Source: Mumia sp. Pv4-285
GTDB lineage: Bacteria; Actinomycetota; Actinomycetes; Propionibacteriales; Nocardioidaceae
Direction of reading: 5' to 3'
DNA: 64,000 bases
Assembly: GCF_041320275.1 (NCBI RefSeq)
Contig: NZ_CP162023.1
Coordinates: 1,302,001-1,366,000, forward strand
The notes below the pieces were generated by a model. That model made no database searches. It worked only from the letters and a program-made list of their open reading frames with translations, and was not told the DNA's origin. The translations under genes were made by a program, and so were the position numbers. Within the stretch, counting starts at the first letter, position 1, and every line of letters begins with the position of its first letter. Shown here piece by piece: positions 3,450 through 27,253 of the stretch.

Positions 3450-4868
3450 TCACTCCGTGGGGGCCCGTCCTGCGGCTCTCTCGTGGGCCCGCTCGGCCAG
3501 CGCCGCGAGCGCTGCCGGGAAGATCTCAGTGGGTGGGGTCACGAGCCCGGCGCCGACCTGACCGGTGCCTGCCACGCGCCCCGCCATCCCTGTGTTGATC
3601 TGCGGCAGGATGCTCGTCCGGCACACGCGGGTGACGTCGATGCCCGTCGGCGTGCCCGCGAACTCGAGCACCGGGATGGTCCAGCGAGGGTTCTCCGCCA
3701 GCGTGATCTCGCCCATGCGCCGCGTCGTCGCGAGCGCGTCCGGCACCGAGCCGCCCACCAGCCTGACGATCGCGGGTGCGGTGGCCATCGCGAACCCGCC
3801 GATGCCTGCGGTCTCGGTGATCGCCGAGTCGCCGATGTCGGGGTTGGCGTCGTCGGGTCCGTACGAGCCGAGGTAGAGGCCGTCGGCGACCTGCGCAGGG
3901 CCGGTGAACCACTGGTCGCCGGTGCCGGAGACCTGGATCCCGAAGTCGGTGCCGTTGCGCGCCATCGCGACGACCATCGTGGAGCCCTCGATGTCGCGGG
4001 CCGCGTCGAGCGCGAGCTTGCAGGCGGGCATGGCGAGGTTGAGGAAGAAGTGGTCGTTGCCGCCGACGAACGCGACGGCGTCCGCGACGTCGCCGGCGCG
4101 TGAGCCCGACCGGATCATCGCCGGCACGAGGTCTCGCAGCAGCATGAGCGTGCCGGCCCGGTTGCGGTTGTGGGCCTCGTCGCCCATCTGGAGCATCTGC
4201 GCGAGGAGTGCGGTGACATCGACGGGGCCGGCCGAGCGGACGGCGCGCTGGAGCACCGGTCCGAGGACGGACGACATCCACCGGAGGCGGGCGAGGACGT
4301 CGTCGGAGTACGCGCCGTAGCGGAGCACCTTGCCGAGGCCCTCGTTGAGCGGGCAGTACGTGCGAGCGCCGGTGGAGGCGTCCTCGAGCACGAAGACCCA
4401 CATCGACGGCGTCACGACACCCGCCATCGGCCCGACGGCGTGATGGTGGTGGCAGGGGTCGAGCGTGTAGCCGGCCCCGGCCCCGGCCCTGAAGAACGCC
4501 GGAGCGTCCTCGGGGTCCGCCACGAGCCCTTCGAGCGCGGCTGCGCCCATCAGGGCGCCGCGCATCGGGCCGGATGCGCGCTCCCAGTCGATCGGTGGGC
4601 CGGCGTGCAGGAAGTCGCCCCGCTGGAGCCCGAGCGCCTCGGACGCCGGAAGGACGTCCACGAGCTGGGCGGTGACGCCGAGGTACGCGGCGACCGCCCT
4701 GGCGTTCGCCTCTGCACGCAGCGGGTCGGCGGCAACGGCGGCGAGGTCGTCGGCGGTGCCTGGCATCGGTGGCTGCCAGTCGACGCGGCGCGCGACGACG
4801 GCCTGCTCGTCGATCGCGTCGGCGAGGAGGCTGGTGCCGACCGTGACGACGGTGGGGGCGGCGGTCAT
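3450..4868 (-). CDS. DUF1116 (YlbE-like) subunit of a carbamoyltransferase-type complex
   Basis: 472 residues, matching E. coli YlbE and its DUF1116 relatives (for example DPCHHHHAVGPMAGV and GTDFGIQVSG). In E. coli, fdrA-ylbE-ylbF lie in the allantoin region, and to my knowledge the three products have been assigned as an oxamate carbamoyltransferase (phosphorolysis of oxalurate to oxamate and carbamoyl phosphate). Here this is the third gene of the same trio. Its ATG overlaps the fdrA stop (ATGA at 4865-4868), which implies coupled translation. Upstream in-frame codons belong to another frame of fdrA. The substrate in this organism is inferred, not shown. Confidence 0.8.
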   Translation of the reverse strand: MTAAPTVVTVGTSLLADAIDEQAVVARRVDWQPPMPGTADDLAAVAADPLRAEANARAVAAYLGVTAQLVDVLPASEALGLQRGDFLHAGPPIDWERASGPMRGALMGAAALEGLVADPEDAPAFFRAGAGAGYTLDPCHHHHAVGPMAGVVTPSMWVFVLEDASTGARTYCPLNEGLGKVLRYGAYSDDVLARLRWMSSVLGPVLQRAVRSAGPVDVTALLAQMLQMGDEAHNRNRAGTLMLLRDLVPAMIRSGSRAGDVADAVAFVGGNDHFFLNLAMPACKLALDAARDIEGSTMVVAMARNGTDFGIQVSGTGDQWFTGPAQVADGLYLGSYGPDDANPDIGDSAITETAGIGGFAMATAPAIVRLVGGSVPDALATTRRMGEITLAENPRWTIPVLEFAGTPTGIDVTRVCRTSILPQINTGMAGRVAGTGQVGAGLVTPPTEIFPAALAALAERAHERAAGRAPTE

Positions 4869-6403
4869 CGGGCTTCTCCTGCCGTCGTTGCGGGCACCGG
4901 AGCGACCAGCGCCACGGCATGCCGGGTCGCCTCGGCGTTGGACGAGAAGACGTACGCCCCGGCCTCGGCGAGCGCCGCGGCCTGGCGTTCGAGGTCCTGC
5001 GGATCGGACCTGGTGCCGACGAGCGTGACGACGACCGGGAGCGTACGACCGTGCTCGGCCGCCGCGGTCGCGCGGGCGTCGGCGATCGCGGGGGCCAGGG
5101 AAGCCGCGGGGTCGGGCTCCGCGCCGTGCCCGAGCACCACGTCGAGCAGCACGACCGCCGTGTCGGCGTCGGCCGCCGTGTGCGCGAGGGCGGCGAGGCG
5201 AAGTGTCGGGTCGATCATGGGGTGGGCACGTCCGACCGTGAGGGCGTCGTCGCCGAAGTCGATCATCACGTGCTCGTCGCCGAGGTCGCCGGCGAGCACG
5301 GAGGCTGCGTCGAGCGCGTCGTCGCCCGTGAGCGGGATGTTGCTCCGGATCGGCCCGAGCTCTTGGGTCGCGACGAGCATGGCCTCGTCGCACAGCGTGC
5401 CGCCGACGAACAGGCCGCGCAGGCGTCCCGGCCCATGGACCGCGTCGGGCACACCCCACCGCCGCCACGTCGGCGTCGGCACGTCGAGCGTCGCGAGCAG
5501 CGCCTCGGTGCCTCCCGTCAGGTCGGTGTCGGCCGACAGCAGCACGAGCTCGACCGGGACCGACAGCGACTCCGCGTACGCGGAGATGGCGTCGGCGACC
5601 TCGGCCGCGGGAGGCTTCGACACGAGGACCACGTGGGTCGTCGCCGGATCGGCGTCGAGCCGGGCCAGCGCCGTACGGGTCGATCGTCCACCGACCGCCG
5701 CCGACAGGTCACGCCCTCCCACGCCGAGCGCCGCGCTGACGCCCACACCGGCCTGGTCCAGCAGCGCCAGGATCTGCTGCGTGCCGGTCCCCGACGCTGC
5801 GACGACACCCACCGGCCCCGGGCGGACGACGTTGGCGAAGCCGAGGCCGACGCCTCCGACGACGGCGGTGCCGCAGTCCGGGCCCATGACGAGCACGTCG
5901 CGCGTCGCCGCAGCCTGCTTGAGCGCGACCTCCTGGTCGAGCGGGACGTTGTCGCTGAACACCATCACGTCGTGGCCGGCCTCGACGGCGTCCATCGCCT
6001 CCACGAAGGCGGACGGGCCGGGCACGGACACCATGACGATCGTCTCCTCGGGTGCGTCGCGCAGCGACGTCGCTGTGGTCCGCGGGGGAGCGACCGCGGT
6101 GTCGCCGGCTGCCCGAGGTGCGCTCGCGGCGGCGAGGGCGGCGTCGACGGCGGCGAGGGCGCCTTCGAGTGAGACCGTCTCGACTGAGGCAGCGTCGAGT
6201 CGCAGAGCGACCACCATGTCGTTGGGAGAGGCGTCGGCCGGCACGTCGAACCCCATCACCGCGAGCGTCTCGAGGTTGAGCGGGGTCGCCATCGCGACCT
6301 GGGCGTCGCGCACGCCCGGCGTCGCCGCGACCTGCTTGCTCACCTGGAGCAGGCTCACCGAGTCGGCGTACACGCCGGACCGGAGGCTTACGTGGTCGGT
6401 CAT
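4865..6403 (-). CDS. fdrA: FdrA-like acyl-CoA-synthetase-fold subunit
   Basis: 512 residues. The FdrA signature is clear: VMGPDCGTAVVGGVGLGF followed by VGVVAASGTGTQQILALL, a succinyl-CoA-synthetase-like nucleotide/CoA fold that recurs in the second half (VVVTLVGTRSDPQDLERQAA). E. coli FdrA is the large subunit of the FdrA/YlbE/YlbF complex. The ATG at 6403 has an AAGGAG ribosome site seven bases upstream, and the protein from there (MTDHVSLRSGVYADSV) matches the family N-terminus. It is the middle gene of the trio. Confident for family, moderate for role. Confidence 0.82.
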   Translation of the reverse strand: MTDHVSLRSGVYADSVSLLQVSKQVAATPGVRDAQVAMATPLNLETLAVMGFDVPADASPNDMVVALRLDAASVETVSLEGALAAVDAALAAASAPRAAGDTAVAPPRTTATSLRDAPEETIVMVSVPGPSAFVEAMDAVEAGHDVMVFSDNVPLDQEVALKQAAATRDVLVMGPDCGTAVVGGVGLGFANVVRPGPVGVVAASGTGTQQILALLDQAGVGVSAALGVGGRDLSAAVGGRSTRTALARLDADPATTHVVLVSKPPAAEVADAISAYAESLSVPVELVLLSADTDLTGGTEALLATLDVPTPTWRRWGVPDAVHGPGRLRGLFVGGTLCDEAMLVATQELGPIRSNIPLTGDDALDAASVLAGDLGDEHVMIDFGDDALTVGRAHPMIDPTLRLAALAHTAADADTAVVLLDVVLGHGAEPDPAASLAPAIADARATAAAEHGRTLPVVVTLVGTRSDPQDLERQAAALAEAGAYVFSSNAEATRHAVALVAPVPATTAGEAR

Positions 6404-6422
6404 GGAGCTCCTTGGATCGAGG

Positions 6423-7223
6423 TCACGCAGCGACCGCCGCACGACGGCGTACGGCGAGGGCGACGCCGAGAGCGAGCCCAGCACCGGAGGTGTGGCCGAC
6501 CTCGAGGAGGGCGGCGAGGCGCGCGTCCGTCCCCGGAGCACCGAGCCCGTCGACGAGCGCCCGCAGCTCCGGCACCGCTTCTCCGCGTGCGGCGTGGCTC
6601 AGCAGCGTCGCGGACACGGTGGTCGTCCGGGTCGGCGCGTCGGACAGGACCCGGTCGACCACCTGACCGGCGTGTAACCCGGCGGCGTACCGCGTGACGA
6701 GCCAGCCGGCGAGGACGTCGTCGCCCAGCGGGGTGAGTCCGGGACCGCGACCGAGCAGGCCGGCGACCGCGCGCGGGTCGTCGTCGCCGAGGCGGTCGTA
6801 CGCCGTCGTGCCCGTGGGCAGGTGAGCGGCGACCGCCACGAGCAGGGAAGCATCAGAGAGGTCGTCGGCGGCGAGGGCTGGTCGGACTGCGACGCGCGCC
6901 TCGACGTAGCGACTCACCCGGAGGGTGCGGCCGTCGACGACGCAGACGCCCTCCCCGAGGACGACGGTGCGGGTCGCGGCCAGGTCGGGCCAGCCCGTGA
7001 GCAGTCCGCACGGGACGGCGACGGCGTCGCGCGCGAGGACGGCGAGGCAGCGGTCGCCGTCGCGGACGTAGACGGCGTGGCGGCTCCGGTGCACGATCTC
7101 GGTCGAACGACGTGGTCCGTGCAGGCGCGCAGCGACCTCAGCGGTGGCTGCGGACGGATGCGCGTCGCGCCGAGGACCGGCGGAACGAGCGGCATCGGTC
7201 CACGATGTGATCGTCGCGACCAT
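6423..7223 (-). CDS. DUF2877 (YlbF-like) subunit, first gene of the fdrA operon
   Basis: 266 residues. The motif GPGLTPLGDDVLAGWL is diagnostic of DUF2877, the family of E. coli YlbF. It probably acts with FdrA and the DUF1116 protein. ATG 7223 is chosen because a TACGCT hexamer sits six bases before it; an upstream in-frame start at 7307 would run through the divergent pucR gene. The two divergent promoter hexamers are only eleven bases apart, so the PucR-type regulator could control both directions from one site. The 3' end lies 19 bases before fdrA. Confidence 0.75.
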   Translation of the reverse strand: MVATITSWTDAARSAGPRRDAHPSAATAEVAARLHGPRRSTEIVHRSRHAVYVRDGDRCLAVLARDAVAVPCGLLTGWPDLAATRTVVLGEGVCVVDGRTLRVSRYVEARVAVRPALAADDLSDASLLVAVAAHLPTGTTAYDRLGDDDPRAVAGLLGRGPGLTPLGDDVLAGWLVTRYAAGLHAGQVVDRVLSDAPTRTTTVSATLLSHAARGEAVPELRALVDGLGAPGTDARLAALLEVGHTSGAGLALGVALAVRRRAAVAA

Positions 7224-7229
7224 GGCGCC

Positions 7230-7252
7230 AGCGTAGGAGCGTTCGCTACGGT
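7230..7252. promoter_or_regulatory. Divergent leaderless promoters for the fdrA operon and pucR
   Basis: Minus-strand TACGCT (7230-7235) serves ATG 7223 and plus-strand TACGGT (7247-7252) serves ATG 7259, each with six-base spacing. The whole divergent control region is about 35 bp, so the transcripts and any regulator must share it. Confidence 0.6.
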
Positions 7253-7258
7253 GAGCCG

Positions 7259-8947
7259 ATGGCGAGACTTGCCAACGATGGATCCGATCCGGACCACAAC
7301 CTGACATCAGCCCCGCACGGGCTGCCGCTCGCGGAGATGATCACGATCGACGCGCTCGTGGGAGCGAAGATGCTCGCGGGCCACATCGGGAGCCAGCGCG
7401 CCGTGACGGGGCTGAACGTCATGGAGGTCCCGGACGTCCTCGCCTGGGTGAAGCCTCACGAGCTGCTCGTGACGACCGGGTTCCCGCTGCTCGACGGTTC
7501 GCGGCGCCTCGACGTCCCCCGGATGGAGGCGCTGGTGCAGGGCCTCTACGACGCGGGTGTGGCAGGATTCGCCATCAAGCTCGGCCGCTACGTCGACGAG
7601 GTCCCGGAGACCGTCCTCACCCTCGCCGACGTGCTGGGATTTCCCATCGTGCAGATCCCGGAGGACGTCGCGTTCGACGACGTCCTCAAGGACGGCTACG
7701 CGGCGCTCAACACGTTCCAGTCCCGCGTCCTCGCGCAGATCGACGCACTCCACGCTGCGCTCACGCTGATCGTGCTGGAGGGCGGCGACCTCGAGCAGAT
7801 CGCCGCCGAGGTGTCCGAGGTGCTCGACGTCGGCGTGCTCATCACGTCCATCGACGGGCGGGAGTGGGCGGGCGCGCTCAGCGACGAGGTCCGGGCCAGC
7901 CTGGAGGTGAGCGAGTTCCTCGACGTCTCGGGGCGCATCCGCGTGGAGAGGATGCGGCGGTCACGGCCGTTCGGAGCGGGGGAGATCCGCGCCCTGCACG
8001 TCGCGGCGTCCGGGACCGAGCTCGCGCGGCTCATCGTCGTCAGCGAGAAGCGGACGCTGCAGGCCACCGACGTCTATGCGCTTGAGCGGGCCGCGACCGT
8101 CGCCGCACTCCTCATCACGCGGCTGCAGGCGGTCGTCGCCGTCGAGGGCAAGTACCGGGGCGACTTCCTCCGCGACGTCCTGACCGACCGCGCGGAGAGC
8201 CCGCAGTACGTCATCGAGCACGCCGAGAGCCTGGGCTGGGACATCGACCGTCCGCTCGTCGTCGTGGTCGCCGAGCTCGACCCTCCCGGCCCCGACGAGC
8301 CGGCGGTCTCCAGCCGGACGCGACGTGGGTACCAGGACCGGTTCGCCGCCGCATGGCGCCAGGTCGTCGAGCGGCGCGGGCGCAGCATCGCCGTGGCCGA
8401 CTTCTCGTCGCAGGTGGTGGCCCTGCTGCCCGTCAGCGCGGACGGGTCGGACGTGGTGGACGTCGTGGAGGAGGCACTCTCCGCCGTCCGCGGTGACTCG
8501 GGCGGTGGCCGCCGGCCGTTCTCGGCGGGGATCAGCCGCGTCGTCGCAGGCGTCGAGATGCTTCCCGACGCGTACGCCCGGGCGCACAAGGCTGTCGACG
8601 TCGGGCGCCGGATGAAAGGCAACAGCTCGACGACCTACTTCGACCGGCTCGGCGTGCGCCGTCTGCTCTCGCAGGTCGAGGAGGCCGAGCTCGGTGTGTT
8701 CGTGACGGAGGTCCTCGGACCGCTCGCCGAGGACACTCCGGCGGCGACCGACCTGCGCGCGACCCTGCAGGTGCTGCTCGACGTGAACCTCAACGTCGCC
8801 GAGGCGGCGCGGACGCAGCACTTCCACTACAACACGATGCGGTACCGGGTGACGAAGCTGGAGAGCATCCTCGGCCCGTTCAGCACCGATCCGCAGATCC
8901 GGCTCGACGTCGCGGTCTCCCTGCAGATCCTCCACATGCGGGAGTGA
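7259..8947 (+). CDS. PucR-family transcriptional regulator
   Basis: 562 residues in PucR layout: N-terminal purine-catabolism domain (about 35-150, with LLVTTGFPLLDG), a central GGDEF-like region (about 300-450) and a C-terminal helix-turn-helix (about 505-550: DVNLNVAEAARTQHFHYNTM, then RYRVTKLESILG). Relatives activate purine, allantoin, GABA or pyrimidine catabolic genes in response to pathway compounds. Its place between the fdrA trio and the permease-hydroxylase operon makes it the likely local regulator. ATG 7337 is an alternative start, but 7259 has the better promoter spacing. Confidence 0.82.
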   Translation: MARLANDGSDPDHNLTSAPHGLPLAEMITIDALVGAKMLAGHIGSQRAVTGLNVMEVPDVLAWVKPHELLVTTGFPLLDGSRRLDVPRMEALVQGLYDAGVAGFAIKLGRYVDEVPETVLTLADVLGFPIVQIPEDVAFDDVLKDGYAALNTFQSRVLAQIDALHAALTLIVLEGGDLEQIAAEVSEVLDVGVLITSIDGREWAGALSDEVRASLEVSEFLDVSGRIRVERMRRSRPFGAGEIRALHVAASGTELARLIVVSEKRTLQATDVYALERAATVAALLITRLQAVVAVEGKYRGDFLRDVLTDRAESPQYVIEHAESLGWDIDRPLVVVVAELDPPGPDEPAVSSRTRRGYQDRFAAAWRQVVERRGRSIAVADFSSQVVALLPVSADGSDVVDVVEEALSAVRGDSGGGRRPFSAGISRVVAGVEMLPDAYARAHKAVDVGRRMKGNSSTTYFDRLGVRRLLSQVEEAELGVFVTEVLGPLAEDTPAATDLRATLQVLLDVNLNVAEAARTQHFHYNTMRYRVTKLESILGPFSTDPQIRLDVAVSLQILHMRE

Positions 8948-8986
8948 GGGCGAGCAAGGGCTGACAGCCCCGTACGAGGTCCGTTG

Positions 8987-9003
8987 GCATGTTCGCACCA
9001 TGC
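8987..9003. promoter_or_regulatory. Inverted repeat upstream of the permease operon
   Basis: GCATG-N7-CATGC lies about 100 bases before the permease start and 21 bases before a TAGGGT hexamer (9024-9029). It is a possible regulator site; which protein binds is unknown. Confidence 0.3.
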
Positions 9004-9097
9004 AGCGGCCTCTCCGCCGCCACTAGGGTCACGTCATTGGACCGGGTGCGCTGCCCGAAACCCCCGGCGGCCGCTCGCACACTCTGAGGAGACCGGG

Positions 9098-10486
9098 ATG
9101 TCGATGTTCAAGTGGGACGTGGTGCACGACGGCAGGACGCCGCCACCGGGGGAGGCGGTCGGCCCACGCGAACGCCTCAGCTGGGGGCGTACGGCGGGGC
9201 TGGGCGCCCAGCACGTCGTCGCGATGTTCGGCGCCACGTTCGTGTTCCCGGTGGTGATGGGACTCGACCCCAACCTCGCCATCCTCTTCTCGGGCATCTG
9301 CACGATCATGTTCCTGCTCATCACGAACAACATGGTCCCCAGCTACCTCGGCACGAGCGCCTCCTTCGTCGCGGCGGTGGCGGCGATCCGTACGCAGGGC
9401 GGTGACTCCGCCGACGTCACGGGCGCCATCCTCGTCGCCGGTCTGGTGCTGGCGGTCGTCGGCGTGGCGGTGCACTTCGCCGGGACCCGGTTCCTGCACA
9501 AGCTGCTGCCGCCCGCGGTGACCGGTGCCGTCGTCATGCTGATCGGGTTCAACCTCGCGCCCGTCGTCGCCGGCGTCTACTGGCCGCAGGACCAGTGGAT
9601 CGCGCTGCTCACCGCGGCGTTCATGGTCGTCGCCGCGGTGCTCCTTCCGGGCTTCTGGGGTCGCATCGCCGTCTTCCTCGCACTGGTCTTCGGCTACCTG
9701 GTGTCGTGGGCGTCCGACGCGCTCTTCGGCCCGATCACGTCGTTCCTGCCCTCAGCCGGCGAAGAGGTGTCGCACGACCGCGTCAACTGGGACGCGGTGA
9801 GCGCGGCCGACTGGATCGGCTTCCCGTCGGGCACGCTCGGCGACGGAGTCTCGGCCGTCCACGCGCCGAGCTTCAGCTTCACGTTCATCCTTCTCGTCCT
9901 GCCCGGCGTCATCGCCCTGATCGCCGAGAACACCGGCCACGTGAAGGCGGTCGCTGAGATGACCGGCGAGGACCTCGACCCCTACATGGGCCGCGCGATC
10001 GGGGCCGACGGCCTCGCCACCGCTCTCGCGAGCTCGTTCGGCGGTTCCCCGACCACCACGTACGCCGAGAACATCGGCGTCATGTCGGCGACCCGCATCT
10101 ACTCGACCGCCGCCTACTACGTCGCCGCTGTCGTCGCGATCTTCCTGGGTCTGTGCCCGAAGTTCGGGGCGATCGTGAACGCGATCCCGGGCGGCGTCCT
10201 CGGCGGGATCACCGTCATCCTCTACGGCATGATCGGCCTGGTCGGCGCCAAGATCTGGGTCGAGAACCGTGTCGACTTCGGCGATCCTGTCAACATCGTG
10301 GGCCTCGCGGCGGGCATCATCGTGGGTGTCGGCAACGTGACCCTGGTGATCACCGACGACTTCGAGCTCGGCGGCATCGCGCTCGGCACGATCCTGGTCA
10401 TCGTCTTCTACCACCTGGTCGCCTGGAAGCGACCCGGCACGCACAGCAGCGACGAAGGCGGAGAAGAGGTGACGAGAGCACTGTGA
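9098..10486 (+). CDS. NCS2 nucleobase permease (uracil/xanthine type)
   Basis: 462 residues with a dozen or more hydrophobic segments. LGAQHVVAMFGATFVFPVVM near residue 30 and the later SFGGSPTTTYAENIGVMSAT segment are typical of UraA/XanQ proton symporters; the latter carries the substrate-binding region. The ATG has a GAGGAGA ribosome site. It is the first gene of a tightly packed operon: its stop overlaps the GTG of the next gene. In this setting it should import the ring compound oxidised by the hydroxylase encoded next, uracil, thymine or a purine; specificity cannot be decided from sequence alone. Confidence 0.85.
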   Translation: MSMFKWDVVHDGRTPPPGEAVGPRERLSWGRTAGLGAQHVVAMFGATFVFPVVMGLDPNLAILFSGICTIMFLLITNNMVPSYLGTSASFVAAVAAIRTQGGDSADVTGAILVAGLVLAVVGVAVHFAGTRFLHKLLPPAVTGAVVMLIGFNLAPVVAGVYWPQDQWIALLTAAFMVVAAVLLPGFWGRIAVFLALVFGYLVSWASDALFGPITSFLPSAGEEVSHDRVNWDAVSAADWIGFPSGTLGDGVSAVHAPSFSFTFILLVLPGVIALIAENTGHVKAVAEMTGEDLDPYMGRAIGADGLATALASSFGGSPTTTYAENIGVMSATRIYSTAAYYVAAVVAIFLGLCPKFGAIVNAIPGGVLGGITVILYGMIGLVGAKIWVENRVDFGDPVNIVGLAAGIIVGVGNVTLVITDDFELGGIALGTILVIVFYHLVAWKRPGTHSSDEGGEEVTRAL

Positions 10487-11370
10487 AGCCCGCTCCGTTC
10501 TCGTACGTCCGCCCGGCCACCGTCGACGAGGCGCTCGCCGTGCTCGCGGCCGACCCGCACGCGAAGGTGCTCGCCGGCGGCCAGAGCCTCGTGCCGCTCC
10601 TGTCGATGCGCCTCGCGCAGCCGAGCACGCTCGTCGACATCAACGGGCTGGCGGCGCTGGCCTCCGTGCGGACGGACGAGAGCGGCGTACGCATCGGTGC
10701 GCTCGCGCGGCACCGCCAGGTCGAGGCAGACGCCGATGCCTGGCGGGCCCAGCCCTTGCTGCGTCAGGCCCTGCGGCTGGTCGCGCACCCGACCATCCGC
10801 AACCGCGGCACCACGTTGGGGTCGGTCGTCCACGCCGATCCGGCGGCCGAGATGCCGGCCGTCGTGGCGCTGCTCGGTGCGCACGTCGTCGCGGCGTCGG
10901 TGGCGGGGCGTCGCGAGGTCGCCGCGGCGGACCTGTTCGTCGGTCCGCTCGAGTCGTCGCTGCGACCCGACGAGCTCGCGCTCGAGCTCGTCGTCCCCGC
11001 CTGTCCGCCGCGGACGGGCACCGCCATCGACGAGGTGGCGCGCAGGCACGGCGACTACGCGATGTGCGGCGTCGCCGCCGTGGTCTCGGTCGGTCCGAGC
11101 GGTGCCATCGAGACGGTGCGTGCTGCCTACCTGGCGGTCTCGCCGACCCCGCACGTCCTCGACCTCTCGGAGGCGTTCGTGGACGGCACGGCGAGCGAGC
11201 GCAACCTCGACGCTGCTGCCGAGATCGCGTCCGGCGCCCTCGACCCCGACTCTGACATCCACGGCACCGCCGACTACCGACGGCACCTCGCCGGCGTGCT
11301 CACGCGGCGGGTGGTCCGCGACGCGTCCGCGCGTGCGGCCGCTGCCGAGCCCGAGGGAGCAGCACGATGA
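10483..11370 (+). CDS. Molybdenum hydroxylase, FAD-binding subunit
   Basis: 295 residues of the CoxM/XdhB family. The FAD pyrophosphate loops AGGQSLVPLLSMRLAQP (about 28-44) and RGTTLGSVVHADPAAEMPAV (about 105-125) are intact. It carries electrons from the iron-sulfur subunit to FAD. The GTG at 10483 overlaps the permease stop (GTGA), and the protein from there (VKPAPFSYVRPATVDEAL) is the normal family start. The gene ends in an ATGA overlap with the 2Fe-2S subunit. Confidence 0.88.
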   Translation: MKPAPFSYVRPATVDEALAVLAADPHAKVLAGGQSLVPLLSMRLAQPSTLVDINGLAALASVRTDESGVRIGALARHRQVEADADAWRAQPLLRQALRLVAHPTIRNRGTTLGSVVHADPAAEMPAVVALLGAHVVAASVAGRREVAAADLFVGPLESSLRPDELALELVVPACPPRTGTAIDEVARRHGDYAMCGVAAVVSVGPSGAIETVRAAYLAVSPTPHVLDLSEAFVDGTASERNLDAAAEIASGALDPDSDIHGTADYRRHLAGVLTRRVVRDASARAAAAEPEGAAR

Positions 11371-19714: not shown

Positions 19715-19732
19715 CCTGAATCATGATTCAGG
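19715..19732. promoter_or_regulatory. Perfect 18-bp palindrome, probable TetR operator
   Basis: CCTGAATCATGATTCAGG is fully symmetric and AT-rich compared with its surroundings. It lies 44 bases upstream of the ligase start and 151 bases before hyuA, in the divergent control region, as expected for the TetR repressor encoded in the ligase operon. Confidence 0.7.
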
Positions 19733-19882
19733 TTTCAAGCATGGATGAGTACCGAGGTCGTCGGCGGTGCCTGGCAGGTAGTGACAAGGTTGGGAGGGGC
19801 GCTCCGGCGACCTTCGCCGTGGGGGACGCGCGGCGGGTGCGTTGGAATCGAGGGGCAGCCCCAGACCCGATCAAGGAGCGCC

Positions 19883-22009
19883 ATGACGTCAGGTCCGAGC
19901 CGTGCCGGGACGCTCCGCATCGGCATCGACACCGGGGGCACGTTCACCGACGTCGTCGCGTTCGACGAGGCGAGCGGCGAGGTTCTGACGACCAAGACGC
20001 CGTCCACCCCGCACGATCCGGCCGAGGGCTTCCTCGCGGGGATCGACAAGATCCTGGCCTCGGCCGACCTCGCTTCGACCGGGAGCGACCGTCGAGGGCG
20101 CGACGCGATCGCCGCGGTCTCCCACGGCACGACGGTCGCGACGAACCAGCTCTTGCAAGGGCAGGTGGGGCGGCTCGGGTTCATCACCAACACCGGGTAC
20201 GAGTCGGTGCTCGAGATCGCCCGTCAGTCGGTCCCCGACGGCTACGGCAACTCGTACTTCTGGGTGAAGCCCGACCGAATCGTCGCGCGGGACCGCGTCA
20301 GAGGAGTCGACGGCCGGATGGCCTGGACCGGCGACGAGATCCGCCCGTTCGACGTCAAGGGCGCTCGTGTCGCGGCGCGATGGTTCCGCGACGAGCACAT
20401 CGACACGCTCGGTGTCTGCTTCCTTCACAGCTACGCCAACCCTGCGCACGAGGAGACCATGCGGGCGATCCTCGCGGAGGAGCACCCCGAAGCAGTGGTC
20501 TCGATCTCGTCGGAGGTGCTCCGCGAGTACCGCGAGTACGAGCGGTCGATGACCACCCTCGTCGACGCGGCGGTGAAGCCGAAGGTCGCCGCGTACGTCC
20601 GCCGGATCGCACACCGCCTCGAGGAGTACGCCGACGGCGGCGTCCCGTTCTACGTCATGAAGTCCAACGGCGGAGTGCTGTCCGCCACGGAGGTCGTGAA
20701 CCAGCCGATCAGCACGGTGCTCTCCGGGCCGGCGGCCGGTGCGCTCGGCGCCGCCCTCATCGCCTCGGTCGCCGGCTTCGACCGAGTCCTGACCTGCGAC
20801 GGAGGAGGCACGTCGACCGACGTGTCGGTCGTGGTCGACGGCGAGCCGACGCTCACGACCGAGGGCAGCGTCGGCGCGTACCCGAGCAAGATCCCGATGA
20901 TCGACGTCGTGACCGTCGGCGCGGGCGGCGGGTCCATCGCCTGGCTGTCGCCCGAGGGCACGCTCAAGGTCGGTCCGCAGTCGGCCGGCGCCGACCCGGG
21001 GCCGCTCTGCTACGCCACCGGGGGCACGGACGTGACGATCACCGACGCCCACGTCGTCCTGGGCCGGATCCCGCCGCACCTGCTCGGCGGCGAGATCCCC
21101 CTCGACGTCGACGCGGCCCGCAAGGGCCTCGAGGGGCTCGCCGCGCGGCTCGGGATGAGTGTCGAGGAAGCCGCGACGGGAGTCCTCGAGATCTCCGCCT
21201 GGAACCAGGCCAACGCCCTCCGGCAGATCACCGTCAAGCGAGGACTCGACGTTCGCGACTTCACGCTGACGACCTTCGGCGGCTCAGGGTCGCTCCTGCT
21301 GTGCCGGCTGATGGACGTGCTCGGCATCCCGACCGTGCTCGTCCCTCCGAACCCCGGCAACGTCTCGGCCTTCGGCCTGCTCACGGTCGATGTGAAGAAC
21401 GACTACGTCCAGACCGCCGTACGCCTCGCCACCGAGCTCGACGCACGCGAGGTGGAGGGCCTGTACGCCGGCCTCGCCGAACGTGCTGCGGTCGCTCTCC
21501 GGGCGGAGGGGTTCGCGCCGGCGGACCAGCGGTTCGTCCGTACGGCCGACCTCCGCTACTTCGGTCAGGCGTTCGAGGTCCGTGTGCCCGTGCCGGCCGG
21601 GCCGGTGGACGACGAGGTGCTCCGGGCCGTCGCCGACGCGTTCCACGCCGAGCACCGTGCGCTGTACGGCTACGACTTCGCCGGTGACGCCAGCCAGCAG
21701 GTCGAGTGGGTGAACCTGCGCGTCTCCGGGATCGGACCGCTGCGACGCCCGGTCGTCCGCCGCCACGAGGCCGGCGCCGACGTCGGCGTCCCAGCGCCCG
21801 CGAGCCGCCGCGAGGTGTGCTTCGACGCAGCCCGCGGGTACGTCGACAGCGGGGTGTACGACCGAGCGACCCTGCTGCCCGGCCAGGTGGTCGAGGGGCC
21901 GGCCGTGATCGAGGAGTACGGCTCGACGGTGCCTGTCCACCCGGGTTTCGTGGCGTGCGTCGACCCCTTCTTGAACGTGATCGTCAGCCGAGAGGGGAGC
22001 GAGAAGTGA
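19883..22009 (+). CDS. hyuA: Hydantoinase/oxoprolinase subunit A
   Basis: 708 residues. The N-terminal GIDTGGTFTDVV is the ASKHA ATP-binding signature of the HyuA family, and a central segment (VLTCDGGGTSTDVSVV) repeats it. With HyuB it hydrolyses lactam or hydantoin rings using ATP (N-methylhydantoinase, 5-oxoprolinase and caprolactamase are known examples). ATG 19883 has an AAGGAG site; an earlier in-frame ATG at 19745 would add a 46-residue tail unlike the family. The product's substrate is not visible; a cyclic imide or ureide would suit the island. Confidence 0.85.
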   Translation: MTSGPSRAGTLRIGIDTGGTFTDVVAFDEASGEVLTTKTPSTPHDPAEGFLAGIDKILASADLASTGSDRRGRDAIAAVSHGTTVATNQLLQGQVGRLGFITNTGYESVLEIARQSVPDGYGNSYFWVKPDRIVARDRVRGVDGRMAWTGDEIRPFDVKGARVAARWFRDEHIDTLGVCFLHSYANPAHEETMRAILAEEHPEAVVSISSEVLREYREYERSMTTLVDAAVKPKVAAYVRRIAHRLEEYADGGVPFYVMKSNGGVLSATEVVNQPISTVLSGPAAGALGAALIASVAGFDRVLTCDGGGTSTDVSVVVDGEPTLTTEGSVGAYPSKIPMIDVVTVGAGGGSIAWLSPEGTLKVGPQSAGADPGPLCYATGGTDVTITDAHVVLGRIPPHLLGGEIPLDVDAARKGLEGLAARLGMSVEEAATGVLEISAWNQANALRQITVKRGLDVRDFTLTTFGGSGSLLLCRLMDVLGIPTVLVPPNPGNVSAFGLLTVDVKNDYVQTAVRLATELDAREVEGLYAGLAERAAVALRAEGFAPADQRFVRTADLRYFGQAFEVRVPVPAGPVDDEVLRAVADAFHAEHRALYGYDFAGDASQQVEWVNLRVSGIGPLRRPVVRRHEAGADVGVPAPASRREVCFDAARGYVDSGVYDRATLLPGQVVEGPAVIEEYGSTVPVHPGFVACVDPFLNVIVSREGSEK

Positions 22010-23940
22010 GCGAGTCCCGTCTTGCGCCGACGCAGTTCCCGTTCGGCACGCTCACCGGCGACGCCGGTGCTGCGGCAGACCCTGTGCTCGTCGAGATCGT
22101 GCAGGGGAGTCTCGCCTCGATCGAGCACGAGGTGGAGACGGCGATCGCTCGGACGTCGCGCTCGCCGATGATCCGCGACGCCCACGACTTCCGAGCGGGC
22201 ATCCACGACCGTCTGCTGCGCAAGCTGACAGGGCGGTCGTACTCGGCTCTCGTCCACCCGGTCGCACGCGACTTCCCTCTCGACGAGATGCGACCCGGAG
22301 ACGTCTTCTTCCACAACGACGTCTACCGGTCCGAGGGTGGCATCGGGCACCTTCCGGACCTGTGCGTCACCGTGCCCGTCTTCGCGCGCAGCGGAGAGGC
22401 TGAGGCACGGGTGGTCGCGTTTGTCCAGGCGTTCGGCCACCACGACGACATCGGGGGAGCAGTGCCGGGCTCGATGCCGAGCGCGGCGACCAGCGTGTAC
22501 GAGGAGGGGCTCATGGTGCCCCCGATCAAGCTCTGGGACGCCGGCACCCCGAACCGGGCCGCGCTCGCGATCATGACGCGCAACTCCCGGATGCCGGAGT
22601 CGCTGGCGGCCGACCTCGACGCCGAGTGCTCGGCGTGCCTGATGGGAGCGCGGCGGCTCGGCGAGCTGTTCGAGCGGTACGGCCCGGAGGCTGTCGAGGC
22701 GTGCTTCGACGCGATCATCGACCGCACCACCGAGACGTACCGGCGCGAGATCCTGTCGAAGATCCCGGTCGGCACCTGGGTGTGGGAGGACTACGCGGAG
22801 CACGACGGCGTCGACGAGCCGATGCTGCACACCCAGCGCATCACGCTGACCCGGACGGGTCCCGACGACCCCGGCGGCGAGCGGGTGGTCCTCGACTTCG
22901 CCGGCACGTCGCCGCAGGCGAAGGGTCCGATCAACCACTGCGGGGACTACTCCGACGGCGTCTTCCTCAAGAAGTGGCTGGCGCCCATCCTGCGCAACCT
23001 CGCAGAGACGCCGGAACGCATGGCGGAGCTCGACGTCAACGAGGGAGTCGTGCCGCTGATCGAGATGCGGTTCCCGCCCAAGGGCACGCTGCTGACGCCG
23101 GAGTTCCCGGCGCCGACCAATGCGCGTACGTTCGTGATCCTGCGCCTGCTCGGCGTTCTCGCGGGCGTGCTGGCGAAGGCCGTGGACGGAAAGATGCCGG
23201 CTGACCAGGAGACGATCCGCTACACCGGCGTCTACGGCACCGACCTCGCCGGACGTCCCTACCTCATGCGGGAGGTGCTCGGCGGCGGCTCCGGCGGCCG
23301 CTACTACGCCGACGGCGAGGACACCATCCACGTGGTTCCGGACTCGCGGAACCTGCCGACGGAGTTCACCGAGTCGCGGTTCCCGTTCGTCGTCGAGTCG
23401 CTGTCGGTCGCGGTCGACTCGGGCGGTCCGGGCCGGTTCCGCGGCGGCCTCGGCTACGAGAAGCAGCTTCGGATGCTCGCCGACGCGCACTTCATGTCGA
23501 TCGCGGACCGGTCGATCCTGGCGTGCTGGGGAGTCAACGGCGGCCGCGCCGGGCGTCCGTTCGAGGTGGTGGTCGATCCCGGTGGTCCGCGTGAGCGGGT
23601 GGTCGAGGCGCTCGCGGACGCCGAGCCCGTCCGCGCCGGTGAGGTCATCCGGATCCGGACGACGGGTGGTGGTGGCTGGGGAGATCCGCTGGAGCGCGAT
23701 CCCGCCCTCGTGGTGCGCGACGTCGCGTGGGCCAAGGTGTCGCGTCGTGGCGCGCGCGACGACTACGGCGTGGTGCTGACCGACGGTGACGGCGGAGTCG
23801 GGTACGACGCGGAGGCGACCCGCGCGCTGCGGGCCGAGCGTGCCGCGTCGCGGAGGGACGACGGCGTCTTCTTCGACCGCGGTCCCGGTTACGCGCAGCT
23901 CGCCGACGGCGCTGCCCATGCGGCCGTCGACGTCTGGTGA
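22006..23940 (+). CDS. hyuB: Hydantoinase/oxoprolinase subunit B
   Basis: 644 residues. HyuB motifs include DFRAGIHDRL near residue 60, GDVFFHNDVYRSEGGIGHLP (about 98-117) and the C-terminal GGGGWGDPLERDP. It forms the second half of the ATP-dependent ring hydrolase with HyuA. GTG 22006 overlaps the hyuA stop by three bases (GTGA) and has a GAGAGGGGAG ribosome site. It is somewhat longer than many HyuB proteins because of a C-terminal extension (about 560-644). Confidence 0.85.
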   Translation: MSESRLAPTQFPFGTLTGDAGAAADPVLVEIVQGSLASIEHEVETAIARTSRSPMIRDAHDFRAGIHDRLLRKLTGRSYSALVHPVARDFPLDEMRPGDVFFHNDVYRSEGGIGHLPDLCVTVPVFARSGEAEARVVAFVQAFGHHDDIGGAVPGSMPSAATSVYEEGLMVPPIKLWDAGTPNRAALAIMTRNSRMPESLAADLDAECSACLMGARRLGELFERYGPEAVEACFDAIIDRTTETYRREILSKIPVGTWVWEDYAEHDGVDEPMLHTQRITLTRTGPDDPGGERVVLDFAGTSPQAKGPINHCGDYSDGVFLKKWLAPILRNLAETPERMAELDVNEGVVPLIEMRFPPKGTLLTPEFPAPTNARTFVILRLLGVLAGVLAKAVDGKMPADQETIRYTGVYGTDLAGRPYLMREVLGGGSGGRYYADGEDTIHVVPDSRNLPTEFTESRFPFVVESLSVAVDSGGPGRFRGGLGYEKQLRMLADAHFMSIADRSILACWGVNGGRAGRPFEVVVDPGGPRERVVEALADAEPVRAGEVIRIRTTGGGGWGDPLERDPALVVRDVAWAKVSRRGARDDYGVVLTDGDGGVGYDAEATRALRAERAASRRDDGVFFDRGPGYAQLADGAAHAAVDVW

Positions 23941-23967: not shown

Positions 23968-24606
23968 ATGATCCACGCCCACGACGTCGTCGCTTTTGCG
24001 ATCGCGGCGACCCTGCTCATCATGATCCCGGGCCCCAGCGTGCTCTTCACGATCAGCCGGGCGATGGTGCTCGGGCGTCGTGCCGCGCTGGTCAACGTCG
24101 TCGGCAACGCGACCGGCGTCGCGGTGCAGATCGTGGCGGTCGCCGCTGGACTGGGTGCGCTGGTCGCGCAGTCGGCCGCCGCCTACACGGTGATCAAGTG
24201 GGTCGGCGCCGCGTACATCGTCTATCTCGGCATCCAGGCGTTCCGGCACCGCCGAGCGGGCGAGGATGCCGTCGGCGCGCTGCCGACGGCGACGCGGACC
24301 TCGCGGGTCCTGCGCGAGGGCTTCGTCGTCGGCGTCACCAACCCCAAGACGATCGTCTTCCTCGTGGCCGTCCTCCCGCAGTTCGTGGCGCGTGAGCTGG
24401 GCGCGGTGCCCCTCCAGATGCTGCTGCTGGGGGCGGTCTTCGTGGTGATCGCGCTGTGCATGGACAGCCTCTGGGCGCTGGGCGCCGGCGCAGCCCGTGA
24501 CTGGTTCGCGCGGTCGCCGCAGCGGATGTCCCGCCTGCGGGGCGCGGGCGGGGGCATCATGATCGGCCTGGGCGTGAGCCTCGCCGCGGGCGGCCGTCCC
24601 GACTGA
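23968..24606 (+). CDS. LysE/RhtB-family exporter
   Basis: 212 residues with five to six hydrophobic segments. The N-terminal MIPGPSVLFTISRAMVLGRR is the LysE/RhtB signature (PGPxxLxxxxxxxxxGxR). These proteins export amino acids or related small metabolites such as homoserine, threonine or lysine. It lies 27 bases after hyuB, so it may remove a by-product of that pathway, but it has its own promoter hexamer and could be independent. Confidence 0.8.
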   Translation: MIHAHDVVAFAIAATLLIMIPGPSVLFTISRAMVLGRRAALVNVVGNATGVAVQIVAVAAGLGALVAQSAAAYTVIKWVGAAYIVYLGIQAFRHRRAGEDAVGALPTATRTSRVLREGFVVGVTNPKTIVFLVAVLPQFVARELGAVPLQMLLLGAVFVVIALCMDSLWALGAGAARDWFARSPQRMSRLRGAGGGIMIGLGVSLAAGGRPD

Positions 24607-24632: not shown

Positions 24633-24938
24633 TCAGCCGATCTCGTCGTCGATCGCGAAGTCGAGCTTCGCCACGCCGTTCTCGAGGCTCTTCACCCGCA
24701 CTGTCATCGTGTACTCCTTCTCGCTCCCGTTGGGGTCGGAGAGGGTGCAGCTCATCGTCGCTCCGGCGCGCGACACGAGATCGTCGGGGCAGTCGACGAC
24801 GGGAGCGAGACCGATCTGCTTGGCGAGCTCCTCGGAGGCCTTGCGCTCGACGGACTTCTCCGGCATCGGAGCATGACCGCAGCCGGCGAGCAGCACCAGT
24901 GCGAGAGGCACCAGGGCGAGGGCGCGGCGTCGAGGCAT
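24633..24938 (-). CDS. DUF4333 lipoprotein
   Basis: 101 residues. The signal peptide ends in the lipobox LLAGC (Cys20), so the mature protein should be a membrane-anchored lipoprotein outside the cell. The remainder (SEELAKQIGLAPVVDCPDDL, then SCTLSDPNGSEKEYTMTV) matches the small DUF4333 fold with two conserved cysteines (Cys49 and Cys64) that can form a disulfide. No function is known. It is a single gene with its own promoter, inserted between the hyuAB and carbamate kinase units. Confidence 0.78.
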   Translation of the reverse strand: MPRRRALALVPLALVLLAGCGHAPMPEKSVERKASEELAKQIGLAPVVDCPDDLVSRAGATMSCTLSDPNGSEKEYTMTVRVKSLENGVAKLDFAIDDEIG

Positions 24939-24950: not shown

Positions 24951-25061
24951 AGGGGAGGCCGCCGCGGTGAGGAGAGGTGGCGTGCAAAAAAGGTTTGATC
25001 CCCGGCGGTGGTGGGCATGAAAGGCGGTCGATCTGCGTGCGGGCTGTGGGCAACACTTCAC

Positions 25062-25076: not shown

Positions 25077-25118
25077 TGTTGGCGTTCTTCGCCAGTGCTG
25101 GCGAGGACCCGCCCGCCC

Positions 25119-25124
25119 TAGATT
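25119..25124 (+). promoter_or_regulatory. -10-like hexamer of the carbamate kinase gene
   Basis: TAGATT, six bases, ATG 25131. Confidence 0.6.
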
Positions 25125-25130
25125 CGACGC

Positions 25131-26084
25131 ATGCGACTTGTGATCGCCCTCGGCGGCAACGCCATGACCTCCGCGGACGGTTCGGCCCGTCCCGAGGATC
25201 AGAGGGCGGCCGTCGTCGGGGCCGTACGCAGCGTCGCGGACCTCGTGGAGGCGGGCCACGAGATCGTTCTGACCCACGGCAACGGGCCGCAGGTGGGCAA
25301 CCTGCTCCTCAAGAACGAGATCGCCGCCACGGTCGTCCCTCCGGTCCCGCTGGACTGGTGCGTCGCGCAGACCCAGGCGACCATCGGACGCCTCGTGCTG
25401 GACGCGCTGGACGACGAGCTCACGTCCCGCGGTCACGAGCCGCGTACGGCCGTCGTGGTGTCGCGCACCCTCGTCGATGCGGACGACCCCGGCTTCCTCG
25501 TGCCGAGCAAGCCGATCGGCCGGTACGCGAGCGCGGACGAGGCGGCCGCGATGCGCCTGCACGGCCAGCACTGGGTCGAGGTCACCGGACGCGGGTGGCG
25601 GCGCACCGTCGCCTCGCCGGAGCCGCGGGCGATCCTCGAGGTGGGCACCGCACGCACCTTGCTCGCCCAGGGTTACGTCGTGGTGTGCGCCGGCGGCGGC
25701 GGCATCCCCACCGTGCGTGAGGACGGTCGGTACGCCGGCGTGGAGGCCGTCATCGACAAGGACCTCACCGCTGCGCTCCTCGCGGCGCAGATCGAAGCGG
25801 ACCAGCTGGTCATCGCGACCGACGTCGAGGCGGCGGTCGTCGGCTTCGGCACCCCGGACGCCCAGCCGCTCGGTGTCGTCGACGTCGTCGAGCTGCGCCG
25901 CCTCGCGACCACGGGCGCCTTCGCAGCAGGATCGATGGGTCCGAAGGTCGAGGCGGTCGCCCGGTTCGTGGAGCACACCGGCCGCACCGGCACCATCACG
26001 TCCTTGTCCCGCATCGGAGAGGCGGTCACCGGGCAGGCCGGCACCCGCGTCGTCGCCGATCCCGCTCCGTTGCCGACCGCCTGA
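25131..26084 (+). CDS. arcC: Carbamate kinase
   Basis: 317 residues, typical size. LVIALGGNAM (3-12), LTHGNGPQVGNLL (about 47-59) and the AGGGGIP plus DKDLTAALLA segments (about 189-220) form the phosphate-binding and active-site regions of carbamate kinases. It transfers phosphate between carbamoyl phosphate and ADP, giving ATP, ammonia and CO2 in the catabolic direction. No arginine deiminase or ornithine carbamoyltransferase gene is nearby, so the carbamoyl phosphate should come from elsewhere; the FdrA trio at 3.4-7.2 kb is the obvious candidate. The ring-opening hydrolase gene follows 62 bases later. Confidence 0.9.
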   Translation: MRLVIALGGNAMTSADGSARPEDQRAAVVGAVRSVADLVEAGHEIVLTHGNGPQVGNLLLKNEIAATVVPPVPLDWCVAQTQATIGRLVLDALDDELTSRGHEPRTAVVVSRTLVDADDPGFLVPSKPIGRYASADEAAAMRLHGQHWVEVTGRGWRRTVASPEPRAILEVGTARTLLAQGYVVVCAGGGGIPTVREDGRYAGVEAVIDKDLTAALLAAQIEADQLVIATDVEAAVVGFGTPDAQPLGVVDVVELRRLATTGAFAAGSMGPKVEAVARFVEHTGRTGTITSLSRIGEAVTGQAGTRVVADPAPLPTA

Positions 26085-26146
26085 GCCTGCCCGTAGACGC
26101 CACGTCGCCGTAGCGTTCCATCCGTACCCCAACCGAGAGGAAGGCC

Positions 26147-27253
26147 ATGCCAGCAGCGATCGAAGTACGCAAGGTCCCGATCCACTCCGTCGCCGACGCC
26201 AGCGAGCTCGAGAAGCTGATCGACGGCGGCGTGCTCGAGGCCGACCGCGTCATCGCGATCATCGGCAAGACGGAAGGCAACGGTGGCGTCAACGACTACA
26301 CGCGGATCATCGCCGACCGGGCGTTCCGCGAGGTCCTCGTGGCCAAGGGATCGCGCTCGCCCGAGGACGTCGGGCAGGTGCCGATCGTGTGGTCGGGCGG
26401 CACGGACGGGGTGATCAGCCCGCACGCGACGATCTTCGCGACCCTCCCCGACGACGCGGTGGAAGCGACCGACGAGCCGCGTCTGAGCGTCGGCTTCGCG
26501 ATGAGCGACGTGCTGCTCCCGGAAGACATCGGCCGCACTGCCATGGTCGAGAAGGTCGCCGCCGCCGTCGAGGTCGCGATGAAGCGCGCCGGCATCACGG
26601 ACACCGCCGACGTGCACTACGTCCAGACCAAGACGCCGCTGCTGACCATCGACACGATCCGCGACGCCAAGTCGCGCGGCGAGACCGTCTGGACGGAGGA
26701 CACGCTCGCGTCGATGGACCTCTCGAACGGCACGACGGCGCTCGGCATCGCGGTGGCGCTCGGCGAGATCGACATGCCCACCGACGCCGACGTCCTCAAC
26801 GACCGCACGCTGTACTCGTCGGTGGCGTCCTGCTCGTCCGGGGTCGAGCTCGACCGCGCGCAGGTCGTCGTGGTGGGCAACGTCCGCGGCATCGGCGGTC
26901 GCTACCGGATCGGCCACGCCGTGATGGAGGACGCCCTCGACGCCGACGGCATCTGGGACGCGATCCGCTCGGCGGGGCTCGAGCTGCCCGAGCGGCCGCA
27001 CACCAGCGATCTCGACGGACGGCTCGTCAACGTGTTCCTCAAGTGCGAGGCCAGCCAGGACGGTATGGTTCGCGGACGGCGCAATGCGATGCTCGACGAC
27101 TCGGACGTCCACTGGCACCGTCAGATCAAGGCTGCCGTGGGCGGCGTCACCTCCGTGGTGACAGGCGACCCCGCGGTGTTCGTGTCGGTGTCGGCGGCGC
27201 ACCAGGGCCCCGACGGCGGAGGTCCGGTAGCGGCCATCGTCGACGCCGGCTGA
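26147..27253 (+). CDS. Ring-opening amidohydrolase (barbiturase / cyanuric acid hydrolase family)
   Basis: 368 residues, family length. The three-fold repeated fold is visible as three Lys-Ser pairs: Lys41/Ser83 (GKTEGNG, WSGGTDG), Lys162/Ser230-231 (QTKTP, ASCSSG) and Lys299/Ser347-349 ([23 protein letters not shown]). The family opens barbiturate to ureidomalonate or cyanuric acid to carboxybiuret. I favour barbiturase because a nucleobase permease, a molybdenum hydroxylase and PucR are close; sequence alone does not separate the two. An AGAGGAAGG ribosome site precedes the ATG. Probably cotranscribed with arcC. Confidence 0.85.

Follow-up and report, generated by a model that had tools for sequence, protein, structure and literature searches.

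Barbiturase beside an AllFGH-type trio and carbamate kinase in Mumia sp. Pv4-285: a probable energy-conserving ending for oxidative pyrimidine catabolism

The described oxidative route of pyrimidine breakdown proceeds through barbiturase and then ureidomalonase and ends in urea and malonate (accessible text of PMC3758960); an ending that yields ATP would differ from it. The question of whether such an ending exists is raised by a gene island of Mumia sp. Pv4-285, in which a predicted barbiturase and a carbamate kinase stand together with a three-subunit carbamoyltransferase of the AllFGH (FdrA) type. In the present study, the island was analysed within a window of 64,000 nucleotides, positions 1302001-1366000 of a one-contig genome of 4.65 Mb (NZ_CP162023.1), where it occupies positions 3450-27253. 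A first-pass annotation of this DNA had proposed that barbiturase feeds the FdrA-type carbamoyltransferase and that carbamate kinase follows. This core proposal is supported by comparative genomics, namely by co-occurrence, linkage, replacement and clade, and we consider it probable (about 0.8), from the sequence comparisons made here, that the locus serves oxidative pyrimidine catabolism with an energy-conserving ending through AllFGH and carbamate kinase.

The ring opener and its genomic company

The ring opener is, by homology, a barbiturase, and it would convert barbiturate into ureidomalonate. Over its full length it aligns with PDB entry 5hwe, 'Barbiturase', at 674 bits with 311/368 identical residues (84.5%), and 5hwe agrees with a protein of Rhodococcus erythropolis NBRC 15567 in 367/368 residues. 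The full-length barbiturases of Rhodococcus share 83-85% of their residues with the window protein, and the nearest named barbiturase locus belongs to Mumia sp. zg.B17 (91% identity). Six other PDB sequences, five of them named cyanuric acid amidohydrolase and one ring-opening amidohydrolase, score at most 316 bits (5t13, 316). Comparison of the ring opener with cyanuric acid hydrolases had been set beforehand as a test of the proposal, and in pairwise scores, the only measure used, it sides with barbiturase; on these figures the identity of a cyanuric acid hydrolase was rejected. The NCBIfam equivalog CyanAcHdlAtzD (cyanuric acid amidohydrolase) also matches the protein (476, cut-off 360), a label that we take as over-broad here. 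According to the accessible text of PMC4051656, the barbiturase subgroup has Gln in place of Arg188 of cyanuric acid hydrolase. At this position, which was matched by motif and not by structure, the window protein and 5hwe carry Asn (SNG) and not the published Gln, whereas Arg is kept in the two cyanuric acid hydrolases aligned (SRG), in a Klebsiella oxytoca plasmid protein (L232) and in L167.

The expected co-occurrence of DUF1116 (AllG), FdrA, carbamate kinase and barbiturase genes was confirmed across genomes of Actinomycetota and at named loci. Among 39 relatives, AllG was found in 17/18 genomes with a PF09663 gene versus 2/21 without one (Fisher p 6e-8, uncorrected for kinship), and G020, the one PF09663 genome that lacked AllG, is only 85% complete. 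Since AllG tracks PF09663 in this manner, the neighbourhood seen in the window is not due to chance. In 15/17 relatives the two genes are divergent as in the window and separated by about 16-31 kb, the pair of G018 straddling the coordinate origin of its contig; the other 2/17 pairs are on separate contigs. In a sample of 396 genomes of the phylum, AllG accompanied the barbiturase-type gene (68-100% identity) in 22/22 genomes that had one, in comparison with 0/5 genomes that had only a 40-44% relative. Overall, AllG was present in 49/396 genomes, including 27/374 without a barbiturase-type gene (Fisher 7e-23, again without correction for kinship).

Linkage was examined at 80 named barbiturase loci, where gene counts were taken from tblastn. 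Carbamate kinase stands directly 5' of barbiturase on the same strand, with a median gap of 33 bp, in 73/80; the seven loci without it are four of the Rhodococcus type, L040, L102 and L089, whose contig stops there. For a survey of compact clusters, the barbiturase region was taken from 17 of the 22 genomes of the phylum sample. Barbiturase, AllF and AllG lie on one strand in 14/17 regions, with carbamate kinase between them in 12, and the remaining three comprise two short contigs and one divergent arrangement. The 14 compact clusters also contain the permease (11), PucR (9), AllH (8), the large subunit of a molybdenum (Mo) hydroxylase (7, with a match of only 30% in L149), a window-type amidase (2), HydA (1, in L162 at the end of the stretch) and HydB (0), detection being limited by stretch ends and divergence. 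L150 has the most complete gene order, with PucR on the opposite strand followed by barbiturase, permease, carbamate kinase, AllH, AllF, AllG, the FAD, FeS and Mo subunits and CoxG. An unannotated Embleya replicon has the gene set except for the amidase, and the genes for CoA-transferase, carboxyltransferase, carbamate kinase and barbiturase succeed one another on it; in Nonomuraea, barbiturase and AllG share one replicon at a distance of about 41 kb. Separately, an Amidohydro_3-family gene adjoins barbiturase in a distant compact cluster (L154:11399-12793) and could be a cytosine deaminase supplying uracil.

The AllFGH trio and two endings

AllF, AllG and AllH are encoded together in the window, as expected of the three-subunit AllFGH family, and the partner carbamate kinase, the sole match in a search of the genome, adjoins barbiturase. 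In two other features by which an E. coli-type oxamic transcarbamylase would be recognised, the clade of AllG and the presence of AllD, the window trio appears to depart from that type. The 32 barbiturase-linked AllGs form a single clade (ultrafast bootstrap (UFBoot) 100, SH-like approximate likelihood ratio test (SH-aLRT) 97) in a tree of 60 rows, drawn from 91 sequences after near-duplicates were thinned and the long branches L184 and L035 were removed; an earlier AllG tree had held 72 of 86 extracted sequences. E. coli AllG, to which the window AllG is 45% identical, groups with L170 and L171 at 100/100 outside this clade, and L170 has an AllD-family gene near its AllG. The AllD family (PF02615) stays below cut-off in the genome of Mumia sp. 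Pv4-285 and exceeds it in only 9/49 barbiturase genomes; an oxalurate source for the trio was rejected on this ground.

The clade also has a residue mark. Position 430 of the window AllG (3579-3581, minus strand) is Gly, by which the motif INTGxAH becomes INTGxAG in barbiturase-linked AllGs. In a tally of 84 of the 86 rows (L184 and L035 left out; some rows represent the same genome twice), Gly was found in 61/61 barbiturase-linked AllGs and in 0/23 others, which have His (19), Asp (2) or Ser (2). The AllGs of Embleya and Nonomuraea, checked after the tally, both have Gly, and two plasmid AllGs have His, one beside a cyanurate-hydrolase-type gene (L232) and one beside a cysteine hydrolase (L235). 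We read Gly-for-His as a likely sign of a substrate shift, from an oxalurate-like compound to the one-carbon-longer ureidomalonate; common descent alone would equally keep Gly within one clade.

The comparison of named genomes covered 48 genomes from the 80 loci and the Mumia genome itself, 49 in all, after 27 metagenome or uncultured genomes, the isolates L107, L113 and L118, and also L072 and L089 had been left out. AllG is present in 44/48 and missing only from the four Rhodococcus/Rhodococcoides genomes. Carbamate kinase of at least 57% identity was found in 45/45 genomes outside Rhodococcus versus 0/4 of the Rhodococcus type (one has a 45% relative), and urease alpha in 4/4 of the Rhodococcus type versus 8/45 of the others (one partial). 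The amidase directly 3' of barbiturase has matches of at least 77% only in the four Rhodococcus-type genomes of the 49. This split of AllG and carbamate kinase versus amidase and urease across barbiturase genomes therefore points to two endings, of which one looks hydrolytic (amidase and urease) and the other would be phosphorolytic (AllFGH and carbamate kinase). Among 28 Rhodococcus genomes, 11 contain full-length barbiturase genes, 12 copies altogether; each copy adjoins the amidase and lacks a carbamate kinase gene within 1.5 kb. A 13th copy is cut at a contig end and one more match was spurious. The window genome lacks the Rhodococcus arrangement: its best match to that amidase is the window amidase at 39%, and the absence of urease noted in the first-pass annotation extends to the whole genome, where urease alpha (PF00449) has no match. 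A similar division is described in enterics, in which allFGHK occurs in urease-negative species and is lacking in urease-positive Klebsiella pneumoniae (Kim and Kim, accessible text of PMC11326118). The amidase gene 3' of the R. erythropolis barbiturase (L044:11233-12726) is a gene candidate for ureidomalonase.

Proposed pathway and its alternatives

In the proposed pathway, uracil or a similar base would enter through the permease, oxidation of uracil to barbiturate would fall to the Mo hydroxylase, and barbiturase, assigned by its close homology to the protein solved under that name, would open the ring to ureidomalonate. In the central step, AllF-AllG-AllH would cleave ureidomalonate, the CH2 homologue of oxalurate, with phosphate into carbamoyl phosphate and malonamate. 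For E. coli AllFGH, transcarbamylase activity has been demonstrated: the enzyme moves the carbamoyl group between oxamate and phosphate (accessible text of PMC11326118). Carbamate kinase would then convert carbamoyl phosphate and ADP into ATP, CO2 and ammonia. In this organism the cluster amidase would probably convert malonamate to malonate, a step that would not be universal. Malonate would then be activated to malonyl-CoA, for which many lineages may use a CoA-transferase. Rhodococcus would use the other ending, in which the amidase adjoining barbiturase, as candidate ureidomalonase, provides urea for urease.

Two enzyme assignments need comment. The large subunit of the Mo hydroxylase is labelled aerobic CO dehydrogenase by NCBIfam NF040766 (1509 bits, cut-off 950). 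That identity was rejected, as its loop reads PYRGAGR and not AYRCSFR, which we take to be the active-site loop of form I of aerobic CO dehydrogenase; with this loop and the context of pyrimidine catabolism, the name is likely misleading. For the step to malonyl-CoA, the first-pass annotation had considered the acyl-CoA ligase, and such a conserved role was not upheld. Only 1/80 loci, that of another Mumia, has counterparts (45% identity or more) of the ligase, TetR and the phosphotriesterase, and on this count the ligase was rejected as a conserved malonyl-CoA step; it also faces a different palindrome. CoA-transferase family III genes occur within 10 kb of barbiturase in 45/80 loci, carboxyltransferase genes in 14/80 and both in 13/80. 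These neighbours fit a conversion of malonate into malonyl-CoA, and CoA-transferase III appears to be a better general candidate than the acyl-CoA ligase.

PucR probably controls three promoters that share a motif. TTGGCN4-5TCGC has three matches in the window, with both strands counted, at the allH/pucR, permease and carbamate kinase promoters (Table 1), and it is kept with small changes in five genomes of the same genus that were compared. A separate 18-bp palindrome, CCTGAATCATGATTCAGG, lies at 19715-19732 between the divergent acyl-CoA ligase and hydA, with 0/100 shuffles within 3 mismatches of it; it is perhaps a TetR operator of a separate regulon, and HydA/HydB are apparently not under the TTGGCN4-5TCGC motif.

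Several observations weigh against the phosphorolytic ending or against parts of the scheme. No biochemical test on ureidomalonate was found in the literature, and the kinetics given for E. coli AllFGH in the accessible text of PMC11326118 were obtained only in reverse, from oxamate and carbamoyl phosphate. The amidase, placed in the pathway by the first-pass annotation, is present in the island, and as a general step it does not hold: the window type is apparently absent from 17/45 AllG genomes (the query was the related Rhodococcus amidase, and the best matches in these 17 had values of 1e-35 to 1e-50), no substitute was identified in them, and it was seen in 2/14 compact clusters. HydA and HydB are conserved together with the Mo hydroxylase, even in R. 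erythropolis (L044/L193), and have no place in the scheme. L174-L176, which fall in the group adjoining the barbiturase clade, have the arrangement Mo hydroxylase-HydA-HydB-AllF-AllG and no barbiturase, so Mo hydroxylase with AllFG need not imply barbiturate. Asn at the Arg position is by itself no proof of barbiturase, because L168, a 40% relative from a genome without AllG, carries it as well. Carbamate kinase was not found around barbiturase (18 kb on each side) or AllG (8 kb on each side) in Nonomuraea, near barbiturase in L040 and L102, which are not Rhodococcus, or on the L149 and L157 stretches. The replacement in Rhodococcus probably represents one or few evolutionary events, so that its p-value exaggerates the number of independent cases. 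Two of the 11 Rhodococcus genomes with full-length barbiturase (G483 and G485) also have AllG, which differs in type, is unlinked and falls outside the barbiturase clade. With regard to regulation, the motif was defined post hoc from the same promoters, and it lies 5' of carbamate kinase in only 2/73 loci, one of them Mumia (L039). When one mismatch is allowed in a related pattern, the window yields 3 matches (0.57 expected), of which one falls inside pucR, and 2/100 shuffles reach this number. Because of the post hoc definition, the match inside pucR and the shuffles, the motif evidence is suggestive only, and with 2/73 loci a general PucR operator beyond the genus was not upheld.

Three other explanations have to be weighed. 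The window amidase might hydrolyse ureidomalonate to urea and malonate while AllFGH and carbamate kinase use a product of HydAB, for example from hydantoin, or from parabanate giving oxalurate. The window and Rhodococcus amidases both fall in NF005686 and are 39% identical, and HydAB, conserved in the cluster, joins Mo hydroxylase and AllF-AllG without barbiturase in L174-L176. We consider this explanation unlikely, since urease alpha is missing from the Mumia genome and from 37/45 AllG genomes, the Rhodococcus-type amidase (at least 77%) is absent from AllG genomes, a different palindrome lies upstream of HydA, and the compact clusters tie barbiturase, carbamate kinase and AllFG together with HydA in 1/14 and HydB in 0/14 of these limited stretches. 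Alternatively, AllFGH could be an ordinary oxamic transcarbamylase acting on oxalurate in purine or allantoin catabolism, placed near barbiturase by chance. This is the reaction that E. coli AllFGH performs (accessible text of PMC11326118), and PucR is a regulator of the purine-catabolism type; however, the scarcity of AllD (9/49 barbiturase genomes, and not the Mumia genome), the presence of AllG with barbiturase in 22/22 phylum genomes and the separate AllG clade with its diagnostic Gly make it quite unlikely.

It is very improbable that cyanurate or biuret is the substrate of the cluster and that its ring opener acts as a cyanuric acid hydrolase, although the CyanAcHdlAtzD score (476) exceeds its cut-off (360) and the enterobacterial plasmid L232 joins an opener of the cyanurate-hydrolase type with a permease, AllHFG and carbamate kinase. 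The 84.5% identity to PDB 'Barbiturase' versus at most 316 bits to cyanuric acid hydrolases, the Asn in place of the Arg that the plasmid protein keeps, and the Gly of AllG here versus His on the plasmid all speak against it. The reading that we prefer is still the pathway from barbiturate through ureidomalonate to carbamoyl phosphate and ATP.

Other genes of the island and relation to known systems

All gene classes listed in the first-pass annotation were recovered by profile matches in 3450-27253 (Table 1). The phosphotriesterase, TetR, HydA/HydB, LysE and DUF4333 genes are further members of the island that it had not named. HydA is present in 42/80 barbiturase loci and HydB in 53/80, and the two possibly form a second, ATP-dependent ring opener that feeds an AllFG enzyme (compare L174-L176). 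A gene for an NmrA-like NAD(P)-binding protein lies 3' of HydB in L191 (3293-4129, before carbamate kinase) and in L193 (5678-6511).

Table 1. Predicted genes and candidate operators of the island (positions within the window; E, E-value)
Feature	Position	Strand	Evidence and remarks
AllG (DUF1116/PF06545)	3450-4868	-	PF06545 E 4.7e-99; PDB homologue 3clq; carbamoyltransferase subunit of AllFGH type
AllF (FdrA-like, succinyl-CoA-synthetase-alpha-like)	4865-6541	-	PF00549; FdrA subfamily NF004760 384 bits, cut-off 433; PDB 3dmy 'Protein fdrA'; real start probably ~6421, because the FdrA match starts at residue 53
AllH (DUF2877)	6423-7307	-	PF11392 1e-21; N-terminus uncertain
Candidate operator TTGGCAAGTCTCGCCA	7260-7275		between allHFG and pucR; conserved in same-genus genomes
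PucR-family regulator	7259-8947	+	PF07905, PF17853, PF13556; real start probably 3' of 7275
Candidate operator TTGGCATGTTCGC	8984-8996		5' of permease operon
NCS2 nucleobase permease, RutG-like	open reading frame 8984-10486, likely ATG 9098	+	PF00860 1.4e-70; RutG 361 bits, cut-off 759
Mo hydroxylase FAD subunit	about 10483-11370	+	PF00941, PF03450
Mo hydroxylase 2Fe-2S subunit	11367-11885	+	PF00111, PF01799
Mo hydroxylase large subunit	11882-14296	+	loop PYRGAGR; best PDB match quinoline 2-oxidoreductase
CoxG-like protein	14293-14964	+	PF06240
Amidase-signature enzyme, putative malonamate amidase	14961-16379	+	PF01425; NF005686 474 bits, cut-off 465
Phosphotriesterase	16584-17543	-	
TetR	17540-18307	-	
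Acyl-CoA ligase	18142-19671	-	
Hydantoinase/oxoprolinase A (HydA), caprolactamase-alpha-like	19745-22009	+	PF01968; NF050156 under cut-off
Hydantoinase/oxoprolinase B (HydB)	21706-23940	+	PF02538
LysE exporter	23968-24606		
DUF4333 protein	24633-24938		
Candidate operator TTGGCGTTCTTCGCCA	25079-25094		5' of carbamate kinase
Carbamate kinase	25131-26084	+	PF00696; NF009007 316 bits, cut-off 266; TIGR00746 343.5, just below 358.25
Barbiturase (ring opener)	26147-27253	+	PF09663 485 bits; PDB 5hwe 674 bits

Two plasmids carry related gene sets. L232 (Klebsiella oxytoca plasmid CP026716.1) has an opener of the cyanurate-hydrolase type with the Arg kept, a purine permease, DUF2877, FdrA, DUF1116 and carbamate kinase, and this cluster may encode a phosphorolytic route for cyanurate or carboxybiuret; among the plasmid matches listed, 28/30 are enterobacterial ring openers with 47.9% identity to the window protein, the neighbourhood of L232 being the one inspected. 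L235 (E. coli plasmid NZ_CP141198.1) has a cysteine hydrolase, DUF2877, FdrA, DUF1116, carbamate kinase, a cytosine permease and LysR. On balance we favour, with some reserve, the broader view that AllH-AllF-AllG and carbamate kinase together form a portable cassette that ends the breakdown of N-carbamoyl amides with a yield of ATP and that would have been joined in evolution to allantoin genes (for oxalurate), to barbiturase (for ureidomalonate, with Gly for His) and to the openers of L232 and L235. Actinomycetota would then degrade pyrimidines oxidatively mainly by the barbiturase version, with the urea route of Rhodococcus as the exception.

If the proposed ending is correct, most of the sampled barbiturase-bearing actinobacteria would conserve energy at the ureidomalonate step. 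AllFGH, assigned to oxalurate in 2024, would be a multi-substrate family with a sequence mark for one substrate, and the amidase beside the Rhodococcus barbiturase would be a concrete gene candidate for ureidomalonase. In the part of the open-access literature that was surveyed, no link of barbiturase to AllFGH or carbamate kinase was found, and an earlier description elsewhere is possible.

Several known systems resemble the locus in part. In ammonia-oxidising archaea and comammox bacteria, allFGHK stands beside biuH, and this AllFGH-carbamate kinase cassette with a ureide route is likewise a genome-based proposal (PMC12625717); it differs in having biuret and triuret hydrolases and no barbiturase, and barbiturate is unmentioned in the accessible main text of that paper. 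The predicted ureidoglycine transcarbamylase and carbamate kinase of Rubrobacter xylanophilus also form a pair that replaces an amidohydrolase in nucleobase breakdown (PMC4016543), but the enzyme there is aspartate transcarbamylase (ATCase)-like and belongs to purine catabolism, and the accessible text has no mention of barbiturate. The yahEFG-yahI-yahJ stretch of E. coli shares the subunit order H-F-G and a carbamate-kinase-like gene, its products being putative or domain-named in the record; unlike the window, it contains no barbiturase gene, and YahG has His and falls outside the barbiturase clade. The allFGH-allK genes of E. coli (accessible text of PMC11326118) encode three homologous subunits and a carbamate kinase, whereas they lie with allantoin genes and not with barbiturase, and the window AllG belongs to another clade with Gly for His. 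Another is the oxidative pyrimidine pathway of Rhodococcus, in which the barbiturase is 83-85% identical and a related permease and Mo hydroxylase are encoded nearby; the difference lies in the ending, which has AllFGH and carbamate kinase here and an amidase beside barbiturase together with urease there.

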